Below are positions 11,557 through 33,628 of a stretch of 41,068 nucleotides of DNA, in pieces. How positions within the stretch are numbered: the first letter of the stretch is position 1; the number at the start of each line of letters is the position of its first letter. The notes beneath the pieces were generated by a model. That model had not been told where the DNA came from. It did not search any database and worked only from the letters and a program-made list of their open reading frames with translations. The stretch comes from a virus. A program made the position numbers and the translations under genes. The stretch covers positions 1 through 41,068 of IMG/VR virus record IMGVR_UViG_3300027840_000001; one strand, written 5' to 3'.

Positions 11557-11948
11557 TGGAGACTACAGGCATGCAAGCACAGGAAGTAGCAATCATAATC
11601 GGGTCTGTTGCTGCTCTAGTAATAGGAATAGCAGGAGTATTTATGAAATGGTTAAATACAATATCTAAGGCAGATAGAGAAGAACGTATTTGCACATCTA
11701 AAGTTAATGCTGAAGCACTTAAGTCATTAGGTGAAGCGCTACTTGCTAATACTGAATCTAACCGAGAGATTGCTAAAGAAACTAAAAAGGCTGCATCTGA
11801 AGCCAAAGAACGTAATGGACACCTCGCGGAATTACAGATTAAATCTCAAGAGATGATTGACCGCAACCTAGCTGAATACCGAGAGATGAGCAAACAACAC
11901 GTTACAATGCAAGAAGTAGATAAACAACACATAAAGGAGGTTGTATGA
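11556..11948 (+). CDS. Membrane-anchored coiled-coil protein in the lysis cassette
   Basis: 130 residues. One N-terminal membrane segment (about 9-32: VAIIIGSVAALVIGIAGVFM), then a long charged coiled coil (about 38-125: KADREERI, REIAKETKKAASEAKE, HLAELQIKSQEM, REMSKQ). The arrangement (short N-out segment, one membrane span, coiled coil) resembles phage lysis accessory proteins such as XhlA-like or i-spanin-like proteins, but no partner o-spanin lipoprotein is present. The next gene, the amidase, overlaps by 4 nt. Likely a lysis regulator or holin partner; the function is inferred from location. Confidence 0.5.
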   Translation: METTGMQAQEVAIIIGSVAALVIGIAGVFMKWLNTISKADREERICTSKVNAEALKSLGEALLANTESNREIAKETKKAASEAKERNGHLAELQIKSQEMIDRNLAEYREMSKQHVTMQEVDKQHIKEVV

Positions 11949-12622
11949 GTTATATATACGAATCACAATGGGACAGCCCTAACTTTACTAAAGGTTATGA
12001 CAGCCGAGATTTTATCGTAATTCATTGGTGGGATGACCCAGCTAAAGGTCCAACTTACGAAGGGACTATCGCTACACTTTGTAATCCTAATCGTGGAGCA
12101 TCAGCCCACTACGTCGCTACAGGGACAGGTAGAAGAGTTGCTTGCCTAGTGAGCCCCGATGACACTGCTTGGCACGCTGGAACAACTGACCCTAACACGA
12201 ATCCAAACCCACACTCTATCGGAATAGAGGCAGACCCACGTTGCCGACCAGAAGACTATGATGTTGTAGCCGAACTTATCGCTAACATTAGAAGTGCCTA
12301 TGGAGACCTACCATTAAAACGACATAGCGATTTTGTTGCTACACGTTGTCCTGGAGACTGGGACTTAAATAGACTAGATGCTTTGGCACGAACTAAAGAC
12401 GGTTCAGGCGATTGGGGAGATGTTCACGATATTCCTAAACCACCAGTTGTAGAGCCACCTAAGCCACCTGTCGTAGTTCCACCAGTAGTTGAGCCACCTA
12501 TTGTAGTTCCGCCTGTTGTAGAGCCTCCAGTGAGTCCACCGAGCATTCCATGGTGGCAACCGATAGTCGACTTCTTCTTAAACGTAATTAACTATATAAA
12601 AGGGAAAAGAAATGCAAAATAG
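11945..12622 (+). CDS. Endolysin: N-acetylmuramoyl-L-alanine amidase (Amidase_2) with Pro-rich linker
   Basis: 225 residues. Cleaves the amide bond between MurNAc and the peptide stem. The Amidase_2/PGRP zinc site is visible: H27 in FIVIHWWDD, and the RHSDF...TRCPGDWDL segment (about 122-140) with the Cys-Pro-Gly of the family. SAHYVATGTG and HSIGIEADP match conserved strands. After the catalytic domain (to about 155) comes a proline-rich linker of repeated PPVV/EPP units (about 162-200), then a hydrophobic/basic tail (WWQPIVDFFLNVINYIKGK) that could bind membrane. No signal peptide, so release depends on the holin, whose start lies inside the end of this gene (12612). AGGAGG of the upstream gene end serves as its ribosome site. 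Confidence 0.9.
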   Translation: MSYIYESQWDSPNFTKGYDSRDFIVIHWWDDPAKGPTYEGTIATLCNPNRGASAHYVATGTGRRVACLVSPDDTAWHAGTTDPNTNPNPHSIGIEADPRCRPEDYDVVAELIANIRSAYGDLPLKRHSDFVATRCPGDWDLNRLDALARTKDGSGDWGDVHDIPKPPVVEPPKPPVVVPPVVEPPIVVPPVVEPPVSPPSIPWWQPIVDFFLNVINYIKGKRNAK

Positions 12623-12800
12623 ATTCAAATCAAAAGTATTATGGGCATCAATAGTTGCTCAAGTCGTAACACTATTACTAACACTAGGTTTTATTGACAC
12701 AGGACTTGGTGCACAGGTTAACGGTGTTGTAGCCGTAGTCTTGCAGTTGCTTGTAGCTGTAGGCGTGTTAAACGACCCTACGTCAGCTAATAAGTTCTAA
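12612..12800 (+). CDS. Holin (phi-LC3-like small holin)
   Basis: 62 residues with a basic N-terminus (MQNRFKSK), a hydrophobic segment (about 10-28), a short loop (IDTGLGAQ) and a second hydrophobic segment (about 37-53), ending GVLNDPTSANKF. The closing NDPTS motif and two-span layout fit the phi-LC3 family of holins of Gram-positive phages. It overlaps the amidase by 11 nt; AAAAGGGAAAAGAA precedes the ATG. It would form the membrane lesion that lets the amidase reach peptidoglycan. Confidence 0.8.
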   Translation: MQNRFKSKVLWASIVAQVVTLLLTLGFIDTGLGAQVNGVVAVVLQLLVAVGVLNDPTSANKF

Positions 12801-13835: not shown

Positions 13836-14633
13836 GTGAAAACTGGAACAGTTAGAATAGAGGGAGACCACGCTTATATCCTAGCGATAGGCGACTTACA
13901 CATGGGCGATAAAGCCTTTGGAAAAGAGAGCAAGAAGAAACTAGAGGGTTATATTAAGTGGGTTCAAGAAAACCCCAATGCTAGAGTTATATTAAACGGA
14001 GATTTATTGAACTGTGCTACTAGGGGTTCTAAGACCAGTCCGTTTGAACAGGACATGACATTAGAAGAACAGATTACAGCAGTCTGTGAGTTCCTAGACC
14101 CAATTAAAGATAGAATTGTTGGTGCTGTCATGGGTAATCATGAGAGGCGTATCGCAGACTTCTCAGGCTATGACCCAACACTAGCTATACTATGGAAACT
14201 AGGGCTAGAGACAGAGAACATCTATTATAAGTTCACTGGTGTTATCAAGTTCCAAATTGGCAAGAAGGATAAGATTAGTGGTAGGGCTAAGAACTCTTAT
14301 ACAGTCGTATTTACCCACACTACAGGTGGTGGTAAGCTGATAGGCTCTAAACTTAACAGGGTAGACCAGATGAGACACTCAACTGTAACCAACGCTGATG
14401 TCTATATAGGTTCACACAACCACTCATTAAGTGCGGCACCAGTCGTATCAATGGAATATGACCCATATAATGAGAACGTAATCCAACGCAAACAAGTCCT
14501 TGTAAGTGCCGGTAGTTATCTAGAGTGGGACGATAGTTACGCAGAGGCAGCACAACTTGAACCTATGAAACTAGGCTCACCACGAATTAGACTAGAAGGT
14601 AAGGGCGAGAAAGACTGCCATGTTTCTCTCTAA
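13836..14633 (+). CDS. Calcineurin-like metallophosphoesterase
   Basis: 265 residues. All metallophosphoesterase motifs are visible in order: GDLHMGD (D20, H22), NGDLLN (D56), GNHERR (N101, H102), FTHTTGG (H161) and GSHNH (H194, H196). These bind two metal ions and hydrolyse phosphodiester or phosphomonoester bonds. The start is GTG with AGGGGG 6 nt upstream. The neighbours are hypothetical genes and membrane microproteins, with a second metallophosphoesterase at 15833. The substrate is unknown: phage members may act on DNA ends, nucleotides or signalling nucleotides. The last 14 nt overlap the next microprotein. Confidence 0.85.
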   Translation: MKTGTVRIEGDHAYILAIGDLHMGDKAFGKESKKKLEGYIKWVQENPNARVILNGDLLNCATRGSKTSPFEQDMTLEEQITAVCEFLDPIKDRIVGAVMGNHERRIADFSGYDPTLAILWKLGLETENIYYKFTGVIKFQIGKKDKISGRAKNSYTVVFTHTTGGGKLIGSKLNRVDQMRHSTVTNADVYIGSHNHSLSAAPVVSMEYDPYNENVIQRKQVLVSAGSYLEWDDSYAEAAQLEPMKLGSPRIRLEGKGEKDCHVSL

Positions 14634-15832: not shown

Positions 15833-16885
15833 ATGGAACATGAAGGAAAATTAGTAAGTACATGGGAGGGTATCACAAAGGATAATGATGGCGAAGCCCA
15901 CATACACACCCTACACAAATACGAGTATCCGGAACAAGTAGACGAGGAGAGGTTCTTATCACAGGCCTCTCCTGTTCATATAAATGCCTCCAGACCGCGT
16001 AGGAGCGCGCGTGAGACGTTATTACTCGCAGACGTTCCAGACATTCACTATGGCTTTAGAAGGCTCCCAGACGGCTCTACACAGCCCCTACACCAACCTG
16101 AAGTTATGGACAAGTGGCTACAGATAATGAAAGACCAGCAACCAGGACTTATTATTCTAGGTGGTGATATACTTGATGCCCCACAAGTCGGTAAGTATGA
16201 GATGGACTCTAACCACTTCGTAGATACTATGCAACTCTCAATAGACGGATTACACAAGTATCTAGCTAGACTAAGGGCAGACAATCCTAATGCTCACATA
16301 ATCAACACTAAAGGCAATCACGATCTACGGTTTGAGAAGTTCCTATTAAGGAACGCCAAGCCACTATTCGGTATTAAACCTGCTAATATGCCGTCAAGCT
16401 GGGCTACTAACTCAATTCCGTTCCTACTGAGATTTGACGAACTAGAGATAGAGCAAGAGACTGGTCCAGTTAAGATAAACGACAGACTAATTACAATGCA
16501 CGGAGAGTTCGCAGGTGGTACGGTCCAGAAGTATCTCGGTAGATACGCTTGTTCAGTTATGTTCCACCACGACCACCGAAGAGGTTATGGACGTAGGGTG
16601 TTCCCTAACGGACAGGCTATAGAGGCATTTGGGTTTGGTTGTCAAGCAGATATTACAGGTTCAGTACCCAGCTATCATAATAAGATAGACGATAGAGGTC
16701 AGGTAGTTGAGAGATATGAAGACTGGAATAACGGTGGCGGATTCGTAGAGTATCGTGGTGGTGATAGACCATTTAAATCAATAGCAGTTCCGATAGAACC
16801 ACAGGATAATTTTGATGCTAGTTATGATGGTAGAGTCTATAAGGCTCGTAAAGATGTCTTAGAAGCCCTTAGAACTGGTCAATAA
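15833..16885 (+). CDS. Second calcineurin-like metallophosphoesterase
   Basis: 350 residues. Motifs: PDIHYG (D70, H72), LGGDILD (D112), TKGNHDLR (N162, H163), MHGEF (about 223) and FHHDHRRG (about 243-250). A roughly 60-residue N-terminal extension precedes the catalytic core, and the C-terminal part has GGFVEYRGGDRPFKS. It shares its motif set with the 265-residue protein at 13836 but is not a close copy. Such phage proteins are often called DNA repair exonucleases; the substrate cannot be read from the sequence. It has its own leader (AACGGGAGA) and ends tail-to-tail with the HNH gene, overlapping it by 17 bp. Confidence 0.8.
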   Translation: MEHEGKLVSTWEGITKDNDGEAHIHTLHKYEYPEQVDEERFLSQASPVHINASRPRRSARETLLLADVPDIHYGFRRLPDGSTQPLHQPEVMDKWLQIMKDQQPGLIILGGDILDAPQVGKYEMDSNHFVDTMQLSIDGLHKYLARLRADNPNAHIINTKGNHDLRFEKFLLRNAKPLFGIKPANMPSSWATNSIPFLLRFDELEIEQETGPVKINDRLITMHGEFAGGTVQKYLGRYACSVMFHHDHRRGYGRRVFPNGQAIEAFGFGCQADITGSVPSYHNKIDDRGQVVERYEDWNNGGGFVEYRGGDRPFKSIAVPIEPQDNFDASYDGRVYKARKDVLEALRTGQ

Positions 16886-17198
16886 CATCATCATAAGTTT
16901 GTTTAGTAGTTAATATACGTTTAATCATAATCTTGTTATAGCGGTCTGGGTAGTGTTCTATAAACCACGCCATGAACCAGGCTGGGTCCTGATGCGCTGA
17001 TTCTGTCTTAAACGTATGACAACCTGAACATAAAGTTATACCGTTGTCCATATCCCACCTGATATTTCTGTTCCTTCTACCTATTACATGGTGAGCATTA
17101 AGGTATGCCGTGCCTCCACAGACCTGACATACCTCGTCGCGTTCTCTAATCTTCTTACTCCACAACTTATCAAGCTTCTTGATTTCAGCGGTTTTCAT
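16869..17198 (-). CDS. HNH endonuclease, NinG/recombination-type
   Basis: 109 residues. Zinc-finger cysteines C24-x-x-C27 and C57-x-x-C60 bracket the HNH core, NAHHVIGRRN (H36, H37) and the final His of SGCH (H61). This is the compact HNH layout of phage recombination/structure-specific nucleases and small HNH enzymes. It is not obviously an intron-borne homing enzyme, since no gene around it is interrupted. Its start overlaps the methyltransferase stop by 4 nt; the two may form a co-expressed pair. It is the last gene of the leftward operon. Confidence 0.8.
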   Translation of the reverse strand: MKTAEIKKLDKLWSKKIRERDEVCQVCGGTAYLNAHHVIGRRNRNIRWDMDNGITLCSGCHTFKTESAHQDPAWFMAWFIEHYPDRYNKIMIKRILTTKQTYDDVIDQF

Positions 17199-17788
17199 AG
17201 TATTGACTCATTAAGTATATGTAGGCCTAGCTCTGGCGTAACACAATTCCTTAGTATCTGCCGCTTATTCTTCAATCTATAGTTAGATAGGTCATACCCA
17301 TAAAGTGCTGATAACTGTGGTATCTGTGCAGAGCGTATGTTATCCTTCTCAAATACCTTGTCTACGATTGGAAAGTTACCCCAGAATAGATGTCGTTGTA
17401 ATACATGGTCTGGTGCTATTAGTGGCGTATAGTATGGTTTAACATTCTCTACAACCCACTTACAGGTAGCGTGGTGCTTGAGGAATACAATCTCCTCATA
17501 TAATGTCATGTCAGGGTACTTGGCTGGTGTGCCGCGGAATCTAACATTGATGTTGAATCTAAAACTAGAGTGACTCTGACAAGGTGGCGAACTCCATATA
17601 AAGTCATATTCCTTGTAATGCTCTAATAGGTACTGGTGTGCATCTGTGACTATGACTGTATCATTAGGAAAGTGGTCGGCATATACCGTAGCGATGTCTT
17701 CATCATACTCAACAGCCGTAACATCGTGTTCATCACCCCATAGCTTACGATTACCACCAATACCAGCGTATAGATTAAGTATTTTCAT
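17195..17788 (-). CDS. Minimal cytosine-C5 DNA methyltransferase
   Basis: 197 residues. Motif I NLYAGIGGNRKLWG (5-18), an acidic residue for the cofactor (VEYDED, 27-32), motif IV SSPPCQSHS with catalytic Cys70, motif VI VVENVKP (113-119), a motif VIII-like QRHLFWGNF (131-139), and a motif X-like QILRNCVTPELGLHIL (177-192). This is far shorter than the usual 300-450 residues, and little room remains for a target-recognition domain. Family members transfer a methyl group from SAM to cytosine; in a phage this usually protects DNA from host restriction. Overlaps its neighbours by 4 nt on both sides. Confidence 0.8.
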   Translation of the reverse strand: MKILNLYAGIGGNRKLWGDEHDVTAVEYDEDIATVYADHFPNDTVIVTDAHQYLLEHYKEYDFIWSSPPCQSHSSFRFNINVRFRGTPAKYPDMTLYEEIVFLKHHATCKWVVENVKPYYTPLIAPDHVLQRHLFWGNFPIVDKVFEKDNIRSAQIPQLSALYGYDLSNYRLKNKRQILRNCVTPELGLHILNESIL

Positions 17789-21543: not shown

Positions 21544-21861
21544 CTAGTATTTGCAGGCCCATAGGTAGCCGAGTCCGTCGTTCAACATCTGAGCTGTGAC
21601 GCTGGCGTTCGCTACAGGATCAAACACGCTTGCTCCGTCGAATCCATATCGTGTAGCACGTGCCGGAAAGTATCCACTAATATGCTGAAACAATCCGCTT
21701 GGGTTTCCGTTGTCATAATAGCTAGTATTGACTGCGTTCGGGTTTAACGTGCTTTCACATCTCGCCATTTGTATAAACCTTTCTTGGTCTAGATTATATT
21801 TAATTGCTACTTGTCTTATTACTTGCTCGGTATCTGTTGCCGGTATTACCGGTATCTCCAC
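21544..21861 (-). CDS. Lysozyme-like lytic transglycosylase domain (likely 3' part of a frameshift fusion)
   Basis: 105 residues from a GTG. Lysozyme-superfamily SLT pattern: FIQMARCESTLNPNAVN with candidate catalytic E36, GNPSGLFQH, then DPVANASVTAQML, ending GYLWACKY; C35 and C103 could form a disulphide. Such domains cleave MurNAc-GlcNAc bonds in peptidoglycan. Read alone, it has a GTG start with a poor ribosome site and no export signal. The frame stays open upstream across 21862-21927 and joins the membrane-anchor gene through a -1 slippery site. The full product would be 194 residues, join(complement(21927..22127), complement(21544..21927)). Confidence 0.75.
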   Translation of the reverse strand: MEIPVIPATDTEQVIRQVAIKYNLDQERFIQMARCESTLNPNAVNTSYYDNGNPSGLFQHISGYFPARATRYGFDGASVFDPVANASVTAQMLNDGLGYLWACKY

Positions 21862-21894
21862 CGCAGGTATAAGTCTCTCAACCTGTGCCTGTTT

Positions 21895-21933
21895 AATAAC
21901 GTCGGTTGACTTCGTTATTTCGTCGATTTTAAA
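21895..21933 (-). promoter_or_regulatory. Putative -1 programmed ribosomal frameshift signal
   Basis: On the minus strand the heptamer T TTA AAA (21927-21933, spaced in the frame of the anchor gene) fits X-XXY-YYZ. A 7-nt spacer (TCGACGA) leads to a hairpin AATAACG (21913-21919) / CGTTATT (21895-21901), with an inner GTC/GAC pairing possible in the loop. The zero-frame stop (TAA) lies 9 nt after the heptamer, and the -1 frame continues open into the lysozyme-like domain. Confidence 0.6.
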
Positions 21934-22127
21934 TCTTTGATCAGCACTTTCGCTTCGTTGACTACTCGGTTGCTGTCTGTCTTGGCGTAAAATACACCAC
22001 CAACAAACGCAGCAACGATAGCAATAGCAACGATAACAGCAATAACAACGCTTTTAACTTTAATAGTCTTAGGTTGTTTTTTTGCTTTCACTTCTGCCTT
22101 GACTTGTTCTATTATTTTGTTTTTCAT
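21915..22127 (-). CDS. Membrane anchor protein, zero-frame product
   Basis: 70 residues: a lysine-rich cytoplasmic start (MKNKIIEQVKAEVKAKKQPK), a hydrophobic span (about 26-48, VVIAVIVAIAIVAAFVGGVFY) and a short polar tail ending KDLKSTK. Positive-inside charge makes it a type II signal-anchor with its C-terminus outside. By itself it is only an anchor. A -1 shift at T TTA AAA after residue 67 would replace the last three residues by 127 residues carrying the transglycosylase domain. A plain stop product may serve as a dilution or partner form. Confidence 0.75.
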   Translation of the reverse strand: MKNKIIEQVKAEVKAKKQPKTIKVKSVVIAVIVAIAIVAAFVGGVFYAKTDSNRVVNEAKVLIKDLKSTK

Positions 22128-31769: not shown

Positions 31770-31994
31770 ATGAAGATTGACGACAAATATCTACCAACAG
31801 TTGAAGATAGGATTCTGTTTATCCAGAACCGTATCGGCGAAAATAAGAAACAAATGCACGGTGGACAATTAGAAGTATTAATGGCTACCGCAAATGGCGA
31901 AGCACGTTCAGTAAAACAAGTTGAAGACCAAATGGAACAAATCCAAAAGAATATCGACATCTATGAACAAGAACTCGCAAAACTTAAAGGATAA
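31770..31994 (+). CDS. Small coiled-coil protein, first gene of the sugar cassette (74 aa)
   Basis: TVEDRILFIQNRIGENKKQM, then KQVEDQMEQIQKNIDIYEQELAKLKG: a charged coiled coil with no catalytic motif. Its ribosome site is the AACGGGGG leader, and its promoter is consensus. It overlaps the glycosyltransferase gene by 32 nt, so it may couple or regulate it. Function unknown. Confidence 0.65.
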   Translation: MKIDDKYLPTVEDRILFIQNRIGENKKQMHGGQLEVLMATANGEARSVKQVEDQMEQIQKNIDIYEQELAKLKG

Positions 31995-32784
31995 GATTGC
32001 CGTTATCCTACCATCTAGGGGTATGAGTTATTCTCAGACTCTTGATGAGTTACTCGTAGAATTAAAGGGTTTTGACTACAAGATATTCTTTTCAATCGGT
32101 AATCCGTTACCAGATTGTTTTAACATCCCGATAGAAGAGGCACTCAAAGATAAGACATTCTCGCACTTCCTAATAGTAGAAGACGATATGATTATCCCTA
32201 AAAAGATACTTCAGCCGATGATAAACAAACGCTACCCAGTTGTGGCGTTAGATTATCCGTTTAAGAAAGACGGTGATGCTACTACCCTACACGATCCGAG
32301 CGGGACAGCTCTTTATACTGGCACGGGGTTCATCCTGATTGAGAGGTGGGTTTTAGACGCTATGCCTAAGCCCATCTTCAGGACTGATATAGCGTGGGAT
32401 ATGATGATTACAGTTGACAACAAGTTAGTCTGTTGGCCTAGAGACGTAAGTAAGATTAAGACCTATGGTTTACACGATGTCAATTTCGGTGTAACGATGT
32501 GGGCTAATGATATGCCGATATATGTTATGACGAGGACAGCAGGACAACGCAAACTGCTATCTAAGGGCAAAGCTAACTCCAACGCAGGAGCAGATAAGAT
32601 TTATGAACTAACTACTGTCTGGAGAGATAACACAGCTAAGAGTAGTAATGAGATACTTGTCCAAGGATACCTAGACCGACTACACAGCATTACAACGATT
32701 GAGATACTAGATAAGGTTCCAGCACACATTTATTACAAGGACGGACAAGCTCGTCTTAGAAAGGGTAAAGATGTCGTCATATAA
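31963..32784 (+). CDS. GT-A-type glycosyltransferase, copy 1
   Basis: 273 residues. IAVILPSRGM (12-21), CFNIPIEEAL, FLIVEDDMII with the acidic triad E73-D74-D75 (DxD-like metal site), ALDYP, LYTGTGFILI, and TYGLHDVNFG. Paralogous to the next gene, with which it shares PSRGM, the VEDDM core and the order of these motifs. The start is taken at the ATG at 31963; a shorter ATT start near 31995 is possible. The family is GT-A-like; sugar and acceptor are unknown. Confidence 0.65.
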   Translation: MNKNSQNLKDKIAVILPSRGMSYSQTLDELLVELKGFDYKIFFSIGNPLPDCFNIPIEEALKDKTFSHFLIVEDDMIIPKKILQPMINKRYPVVALDYPFKKDGDATTLHDPSGTALYTGTGFILIERWVLDAMPKPIFRTDIAWDMMITVDNKLVCWPRDVSKIKTYGLHDVNFGVTMWANDMPIYVMTRTAGQRKLLSKGKANSNAGADKIYELTTVWRDNTAKSSNEILVQGYLDRLHSITTIEILDKVPAHIYYKDGQARLRKGKDVVI

Positions 32785-33628
32785 CATAGGGGTAGTCTAT
32801 CCATCACGGGGTATGTGTTTTACCGAGACTTTTAAGGAAGTCCTAGACAATTTGGCTGATTCTAAGGCGCTGTACACGATTTATTGGTCGCATGGTAACA
32901 AATTACCAGCTTGCTTCAATAAGCCCCTACAACGGGCGTTAAAAGGCTCACACACGCATATATGGTTCGTTGAGGATGATATGGTGCTGAAAAAAGGCAT
33001 ATTGAATGAACTATTAGCTGAAGACAAGGACATCATCTCGTGCGACTACCCAATCGTTAAGGCTCCTAGCGGCACTATCCTCTACGACAAGGCAGGAGAC
33101 GCTATATTTACTGGTACTGGTTGTATGTTGGCTAAAGTAGGAGTCTTTGAGACTATGCCAATGCCAATCTTCCGAGCTGATATTCGTTGGGGTTTCAAAC
33201 AATACACCGATAAAGTTAAGTTTACTGCTGAGAACGTGGACCCAGACAAGGTATATGGTCACCACGACATAACTTTCGGACTTTATCAATACCTAAATAA
33301 CCAACCTATATCAGTTTCCAAGACCACATTATCGCAACGTAAGCTCAAGAAAAGGGGTGAAAACGGCAATAACATAGGAACGGATACCATAGAATTATTC
33401 GATGATTACCGTAAAATTAACTACTACATGGTCGAGGTAGAGCCTGAAAAGGATGAGAGATTTGTAACAGTTTATATTGACAAGAAACCTGTATGGGTAA
33501 CTCCAGAGCAGGCTAAACGGTTGGGACAGTTTGATAGCGTCTCACCAACGATATTTGAAAAGGGACATATCATAGTAGATTTAAATAATAATAAGATAGC
33601 CCGAAAGGCTTTAAGGAGAAAGAAATGA
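32771..33628 (+). CDS. GT-A-type glycosyltransferase, copy 2
   Basis: 285 residues. IGVVYPSRGM (6-15), ACFNKPLQRAL, IWFVEDDMVL (E68-D69-D70), SCDYPIV, FTGTGCMLA, and YGHHDITFGLYQYL, in the same order as in copy 1. It overlaps copy 1 by 14 nt and the epimerase gene by 4 nt. A tandem duplication followed by divergence is likely; the two may add successive sugars. Confidence 0.65.
   Translation: MSSYNIGVVYPSRGMCFTETFKEVLDNLADSKALYTIYWSHGNKLPACFNKPLQRALKGSHTHIWFVEDDMVLKKGILNELLAEDKDIISCDYPIVKAPSGTILYDKAGDAIFTGTGCMLAKVGVFETMPMPIFRADIRWGFKQYTDKVKFTAENVDPDKVYGHHDITFGLYQYLNNQPISVSKTTLSQRKLKKRGENGNNIGTDTIELFDDYRKINYYMVEVEPEKDERFVTVYIDKKPVWVTPEQAKRLGQFDSVSPTIFEKGHIIVDLNNNKIARKALRRKK

Follow-up and report, generated by a model that had tools for sequence, protein, structure and literature searches.

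The window, that is, the whole stretch of 41,068 nucleotides analysed here, is a 41-kb viral contig whose plus strand carries the genes for terminase, portal, tail, and LPD38. No tRNA genes were found in it. A leftward operon carries an exonuclease, an HNH protein, small ORFs, and a gene that is split between two reading frames. A separate late endolysin of the Amidase_2 family (11945-12622) is found together with a holin (12612-12800). The layout agrees with an earlier, sequence-only reading of this DNA, which had placed the split gene's enzyme in a leftward, presumably early operon and apart from the late endolysin. Elsewhere in the window, the ORFs at 31921-32784 and 32771-33628 (region 31921-33628) look like tandem paralogues, each matching both copies in contig L014. 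In the region 16869-17788, an ORF of 197 aa matches a C5-cytosine methylase in its N-terminal 77 residues only; an HNH ORF comes next and overlaps it, and the methylase, which has a 55% homologue in L016, is possibly truncated or rearranged. Two metallophosphoesterase-like genes (13836-14633 and 15833-16885) are also present, and for one of them the best match is a PHROG annotated as DNA repair exonuclease.

The zero-frame part of the split gene is an ORF on the minus strand (22127-21915) that encodes a 70-aa, 7.6-kDa protein, with an ATG at 22127, the Shine-Dalgarno sequence AGAAAGG 5' of it, and a TAA stop at 21917-21915. The protein's cationic N-tail leads into a single transmembrane segment (residues 27-45), beyond which lies a short external tail. 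In the -1 frame, 169 codons run without a stop through a transglycosylase (SLT) domain down to 21544; the part beyond the slip site discussed below (21927-21544, minus strand; stop at 21546-21544) comprises 127 aa of linker and SLT domain. The sole standard start (ATG, GTG, and TTG were considered) in this frame 5' of the domain is a GTG at 21861-21859 on the minus strand. It is judged to be unused, as no Shine-Dalgarno sequence was seen at normal spacing before it, whereas the anchor ATG has one. That the GTG is a weak start and that the -1 frame is open from the slip site into a lysozyme-like domain had both been noted from the letters of this DNA, and both points are borne out, the latter also by a PF01464 match. 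The positions given at that time for the anchor, its TAA, the slip heptamer, and the arms of a downstream hairpin were rechecked and all match.

Single-sequence searches with the SLT domain or the anchor gave no relative in the viral, genome, or phage collections, and there was no match in the genome_contigs collection. The family was revealed by a degenerate DNA pattern around the residues CEST, which identified two loci with the same layout (L028 and L031). Alignment-based scans of viral contigs then gave ten further distinct lineages, L033, L034 (equal to L036), L035, L037, L038, L040, L041, L078, L079 (close to L081), and L080, making 11 with the window. In all 11, an anchor of some 70 aa, divergent in sequence, precedes an SLT domain in the -1 frame; the window anchor is 42% identical over its length to that of L031/L034, and the window's SLT domain shares 54-66% identity with its counterparts in seven viral loci. 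A filter for the cassette, run over both strands of 1.39 Mb, retrieved these ten genes and one chance match, which starts with ATG. In seven other homologues (L039, L043, L046, L047, L055, L056, and L094), a membrane segment and the SLT domain are joined in a single frame, so a fusion is the expected product of the split gene.

These single-frame homologues, together with the fact that the window is one metagenomic contig, would also fit a broken gene, in which a 1-nt deletion or a sequencing error split a membrane-anchored SLT gene. This explanation is refuted by the conservation of the split across the lineages: it recurs in 11 of them, always with the frame changing in one direction and at one position with respect to the slip core and the pseudoknot (see below), and the -1 frame protein is still 54-66% identical in several of them. 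We regard a broken gene as extremely improbable.

In the relatives tested, nothing matched the window's terminase. Conversely, phages with the closest terminases (47-75% identity) gave no SLT match, several of these records being fragments; the gene thus appears to move among phages. In a tree of SLT domains the frameshifted members cluster (4 changes; 0/500 shuffles as low), which fits both a single and a repeated origin. The L034 phage encodes a late endolysin of its own as well as an Erf-like protein. The L038 contig encodes a serine integrase whose nearest counterparts are those of actinobacteriophages at about 40%, which is a hint only as regards the host. Given this integrase and the origin of the contig in an IMG genome entry, L038 may be a prophage. 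Three further observations concern the gene and its neighborhood. The near-identical anchor, slip site, and linker of L034 (2681-3288) and L036 (2681-3303) are followed by a strongly different second half of the SLT domain, including a 5-residue insertion, which looks like recombination within the gene. A single-frame homologue (L032, 2752-2830) has a hydrophobic segment with no ATG, GTG, or TTG before it and perhaps uses an ATT start after GAGG. Finally, a family of 115-230-aa ORFs, by eye HNH/zinc-ribbon like, lies 0.5-1.5 kb upstream of the anchor in 10 of the 13 loci compared within L033-L041 and L079-L081.

Near the end of the anchor ORF in the window lies the heptamer T TTA AAA (21933-21927, minus strand). 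An in-frame NNA AAA is present 0 to 5 codons before the anchor stop in all 11 lineages, as against 6.9% of random stop contexts. The zero-frame codons of the overlap read GAT TTA AAA TCG ACG AAA TAA in the window. The pair TTA AAA is also found in L033 (GAG TTA AAA TCC CAA GAA CAG AAT TAG), L034 (GAG TTA AAA GAA AAC CAG TAG), L037 (ACG TTA AAA GAC GAG CAG TAG), L041 (GAG TTA AAA AAG TAG), and L078 (CAG TTA AAA TAA). The corresponding codons are TCA AAA in L038 (GCG TCA AAA GCA GTA GCC CGT TAA), L040 (ACG TCA AAA GAC GCT CAG TAG), L079 (GTG TCA AAA ACA AAG AAC TAG), and L080 (ATT TCA AAA ACG AAG CAG TAG), and GTA AAA in L035 (GTA GTA AAA TAA). Thus, when the window's heptamer was sought in the relatives, as had been suggested, its A_AAA core, which allows re-pairing in the -1 frame, was found in 11 of 11 lineages; the full T TTA AAA, and with it the X XXY YYZ pattern, is confined to the window, its equivalents elsewhere being G TTA AAA, G TCA AAA, T TCA AAA, and A GTA AAA. 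Simultaneous slippage of both tRNAs therefore cannot be the general rule, and the shared event would be re-pairing of Lys-tRNA on A_AAA. The two frames overlap by just 8 to 10 codons in L034, L037, and L078, so a -1 shift must occur within that overlap. Inspection by eye gave no Shine-Dalgarno-like stimulator 5' of the slip site that is consistent across the lineages.

Downstream of the heptamer, a 7-nt spacer (TCGACGA, 21926-21920) leads to the hairpin AATAACG/CGTTATT. The sequence-only reading had proposed this hairpin as the stimulator, and its exact position and spacing hold, a comparable stem being found in 8 of the 11 lineages. A structure downstream is likewise retained (10 of 11), but the plain hairpin is not: in the window, the loop sequence TCAACC pairs with GGTTGA further downstream, giving a predicted H-type pseudoknot. 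All four arms are on the minus strand. Stem 1 is formed by AATAACG (21919-21913), which includes the zero-frame stop codon, and CGTTATT (21901-21895); stem 2 is formed by TCAACC (21909-21904), within the stem 1 loop, and GGTTGA (21883-21878), which follows an 11-nt loop, AAACAGGCACA.

The hairpin is part of such a pseudoknot in 10 of the 11 lineages, the exception being L078. Stem 1 and stem 2 are GAACAG/CTGTTC and GTTGTC/GACAAC in L033, CAGTAG/CTACTG and ACAGCC/GGCTGT in L034, GATTG/CAATC and TTAGCC/GGCTAA in L035, AGTTGTA/TACAACT and AGCC/GGCT in L041, and AACTAG/CTAGTT and TTACCGTC/GACGGTAA in L079. In L037, L038, L040, and L080, stem 2 is CCGTC/GACGG, combined with stem 1 CAGTAGC/GCTACTG in L037, CGTTA/TAACG in L038, and CAGTAG/CTACTG in both L040 and L080. 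Stem 1 starts 6 nt after the AAA in seven lineages, 7 nt after it in the window and L035, and 9 nt after it in L038 (where both stems have 5 bp), and the 3' partner of stem 2 is located 10-13 nt past stem 1. No stem 1 was found in L078 in the tested range; here (1207-1300), where the slip reads TTA AAA TAA, AAGGG/CCCTT around TGCG/CGCA may replace it, and AACGCT/AGCGTT as a second stem is an alternative possible substitute.

Ten of the 11 lineages have a stem 1 with 5 bp or more that begins 5-9 nt downstream; such spacers fall in the range commonly studied, and bacterial ribosomes use pseudoknots for -1 shifting (PMC5009743). When 6 bp or more and a spacing of exactly 6-7 nt are required, the count is 8 of 11 against a background of 0.0048 per position (binomial about 1e-14, independence assumed), and the combined P for stem 2 in the same 10 lineages, relative to random segments of the same loci, is 6e-8; both values are overstated, since they treat as independent lineages that are related, four of which share the stem CAGTAG. 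The compensatory changes point in the same direction: 50 of 50 core pairs are kept in each stem, compared with permuted means of 32.8 and 39.9, and when the 3' arms were dealt among the lineages the observed pairing was reached in 0 of 5000 permutations for either stem, a figure to which the same caveat on independence applies. The two crossing stems, with compensating substitutions in both, argue for a pseudoknot of the H type. When single sequences were folded with ViennaRNA, which does not score pseudoknots and played no part in the case for them, the folds of several lineages favoured stem 2 or alternative pairings.

A short run of A is present in every lineage, and slippage of RNA polymerase on it, rather than of ribosomes, might in principle change the frame. 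The runs used in polymerase slippage are typically longer than four A, however, and the run here has just four in nearly all lineages (six in L041). Moreover, a 3' structure at a fixed spacing of 6-7 nt is the ribosomal type of stimulator (PMC5009743). Slippage by the polymerase has, in our estimate, a negligible probability.

The enzyme encoded in the -1 frame matches PF01464 (SLT) with 33.3 bits against a gathering threshold of 21.3 (E 4e-8), and the match is above cut-off in 11 of 11 records tested. Its catalytic-type Glu lies in a CES motif, in which E58 and S59 are invariant among 15 homologues; the glutamate that the sequence-only reading had called intact is thus conserved in the family. 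Conservation extends to C57, beside the catalytic Glu, and to C125, close to the end, as would be expected of a disulfide formed outside the cytoplasm. An AlphaFold model, limited to the -1 frame part, has a pLDDT of 74, with low confidence in the linker. The best fold matches in Foldseek are MltC (4cfo, probability 1.00, E 0.037) and then MltE, with E-values that are weak (0.04 and up) though the probability is near 1 for both; the T7 ejectosome chain 7k5c is a weak match. Family and motif support the assignment as a putative lytic transglycosylase.

If the SLT part were made as a second protein, started independently or by reinitiation, a start at GTG 21861 would retain the whole domain, and termination-coupled initiation is common in phage operons. 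However, this GTG is not conserved and, as noted, is without a Shine-Dalgarno sequence. L034, L036, L078, L079, L080, and L081 have no standard start 5' of the matched domain, and the first one falls inside the domain in L034, L036, L078, and L080. An enzyme started internally would also lack an export signal, in conflict with the outside location implied by the conserved Cys pair and the peptidoglycan substrate, and the slip core and the pseudoknot would be left unexplained. Production of two separate proteins is therefore quite improbable.

The anchors of all lineages combine an N-tail of net positive charge with a single hydrophobic segment. By the positive-inside rule, such an anchor would adopt an N-in/C-out topology, and the window protein is accordingly predicted to be a type II membrane anchor. 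In addition, the transmembrane segment of every lineage contains or adjoins small-xxx-small patterns, and GxxxG is found in the anchors of L033, L037, L038, L040, L041, L078, L080, and L081. These patterns are compatible with assembly of the free anchor and the fusion together.

Collectively, the comparisons make it highly probable that the gene is expressed through a programmed -1 ribosomal frameshift, yielding mostly free anchor and a minority of a 21.4-kDa anchored enzyme. A frameshift joining the anchor to a transglycosylase had been proposed for the window, and the proposal gains from the recurrence of the split, the A_AAA core, and the downstream structure among the 11 lineages. In the suggested mechanism, ribosomes would initiate at ATG 22127 and translate the anchor, and the pseudoknot, 7 nt ahead, would hold them on NNA AAA (T TTA AAA in the window). 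A fraction would slip back one base, mainly by Lys-tRNA re-pairing from AAA to AAA, and then read on in the SLT frame; in L035 and L078, where the stop directly follows AAA, the slip may take place with Lys-tRNA in the P site. The majority would terminate three codons later, releasing the free 70-aa anchor, while the minority product is predicted to be a 194-aa fusion of 21.4 kDa, which in the window would read ...VLIKDLK-IDEITK... across the junction. Inserted N-in/C-out, the fusion would place a small amount of transglycosylase, tethered, outside the cytoplasmic membrane.

The arrangement resembles lambda gpG/gpGT and other tail-assembly-chaperone shifts in that a short phage ORF, with a -1 shift close to its end, would give two products with a common N-terminus, the shorter one expected in excess. 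Here, in contrast, a membrane anchor is the common part, to which a peptidoglycan-cutting enzyme is appended; the operon containing the gene is non-structural, and a conserved pseudoknot is the putative stimulator. We rejected a tail assembly chaperone of the G/GT type as an identity for the gene, which carries an SLT domain and lies in the leftward non-structural operon, not between major tail and tape measure genes. In IS3-family orfA/orfB a low-level -1 shift likewise adds a catalytic domain to a short zero-frame protein, the slip sites of that family include ones that work without re-pairing in the P site, and stem-loops or pseudoknots act as stimulators (PMC5009743); there is no transposase here, the anchor being a membrane protein and the catalytic domain an SLT domain. 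Escherichia coli dnaX and classical heptamer-plus-structure sites share the AAA-based slip and a 3' RNA structure (compare TTA AAA AAG in L041), but no upstream Shine-Dalgarno-like element is seen here and the structure is a pseudoknot, not a simple hairpin. Compared with MltC, MltE, and other PF01464 enzymes, which have an SLT domain with the same catalytic-type Glu, the present domain is very short, has a conserved Cys pair, and would receive an inner-membrane anchor by frameshifting, not a lipoprotein signal. The T7 gp16-like virion transglycosylases also have a phage SLT domain (hence the weak 7k5c match); the present enzyme is a small anchored protein encoded outside the structural module.

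The open-access literature searched holds nothing comparable among frameshifted transglycosylase, endolysin, or lysozyme genes. The accessible portions of a comprehensive recoding review and of the PRFect paper present DNA-phage cases dominated by tail chaperones and do not contain the words transglycosylase or lysozyme. Programmed -1 shifting itself is known; we did not find a description of its recurring use to join an anchor to a wall enzyme.

As to function, the most likely role is that of a metered, tethered enzyme loosening the wall locally in early or middle infection, rather than in final lysis. Superinfection exclusion and aid to lysis are alternatives that we do not favour over the metered enzyme. 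A broader and more tentative suggestion, which we consider possible though somewhat doubtful, is that the metered enzyme belongs to a widespread phage module, in which the pseudoknot-driven frameshift fixes the ratio of free anchor to anchor-hydrolase, and the free anchor co-assembles with the enzyme and restrains or places it, giving local early wall opening without lysis.

Standard annotation would break such a locus into a very small orphan membrane protein and an SLT fragment that has neither an export signal nor a start. The at least ten natural variants of this small, portable -1 pseudoknot cassette for bacterial ribosomes are directly comparable. Known phage frameshifts are mostly structural, producing tail chaperones and capsid or tail extensions. 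Here, a conserved recoding cassette would instead control a potentially lethal peptidoglycan enzyme in phages with unrelated terminases.
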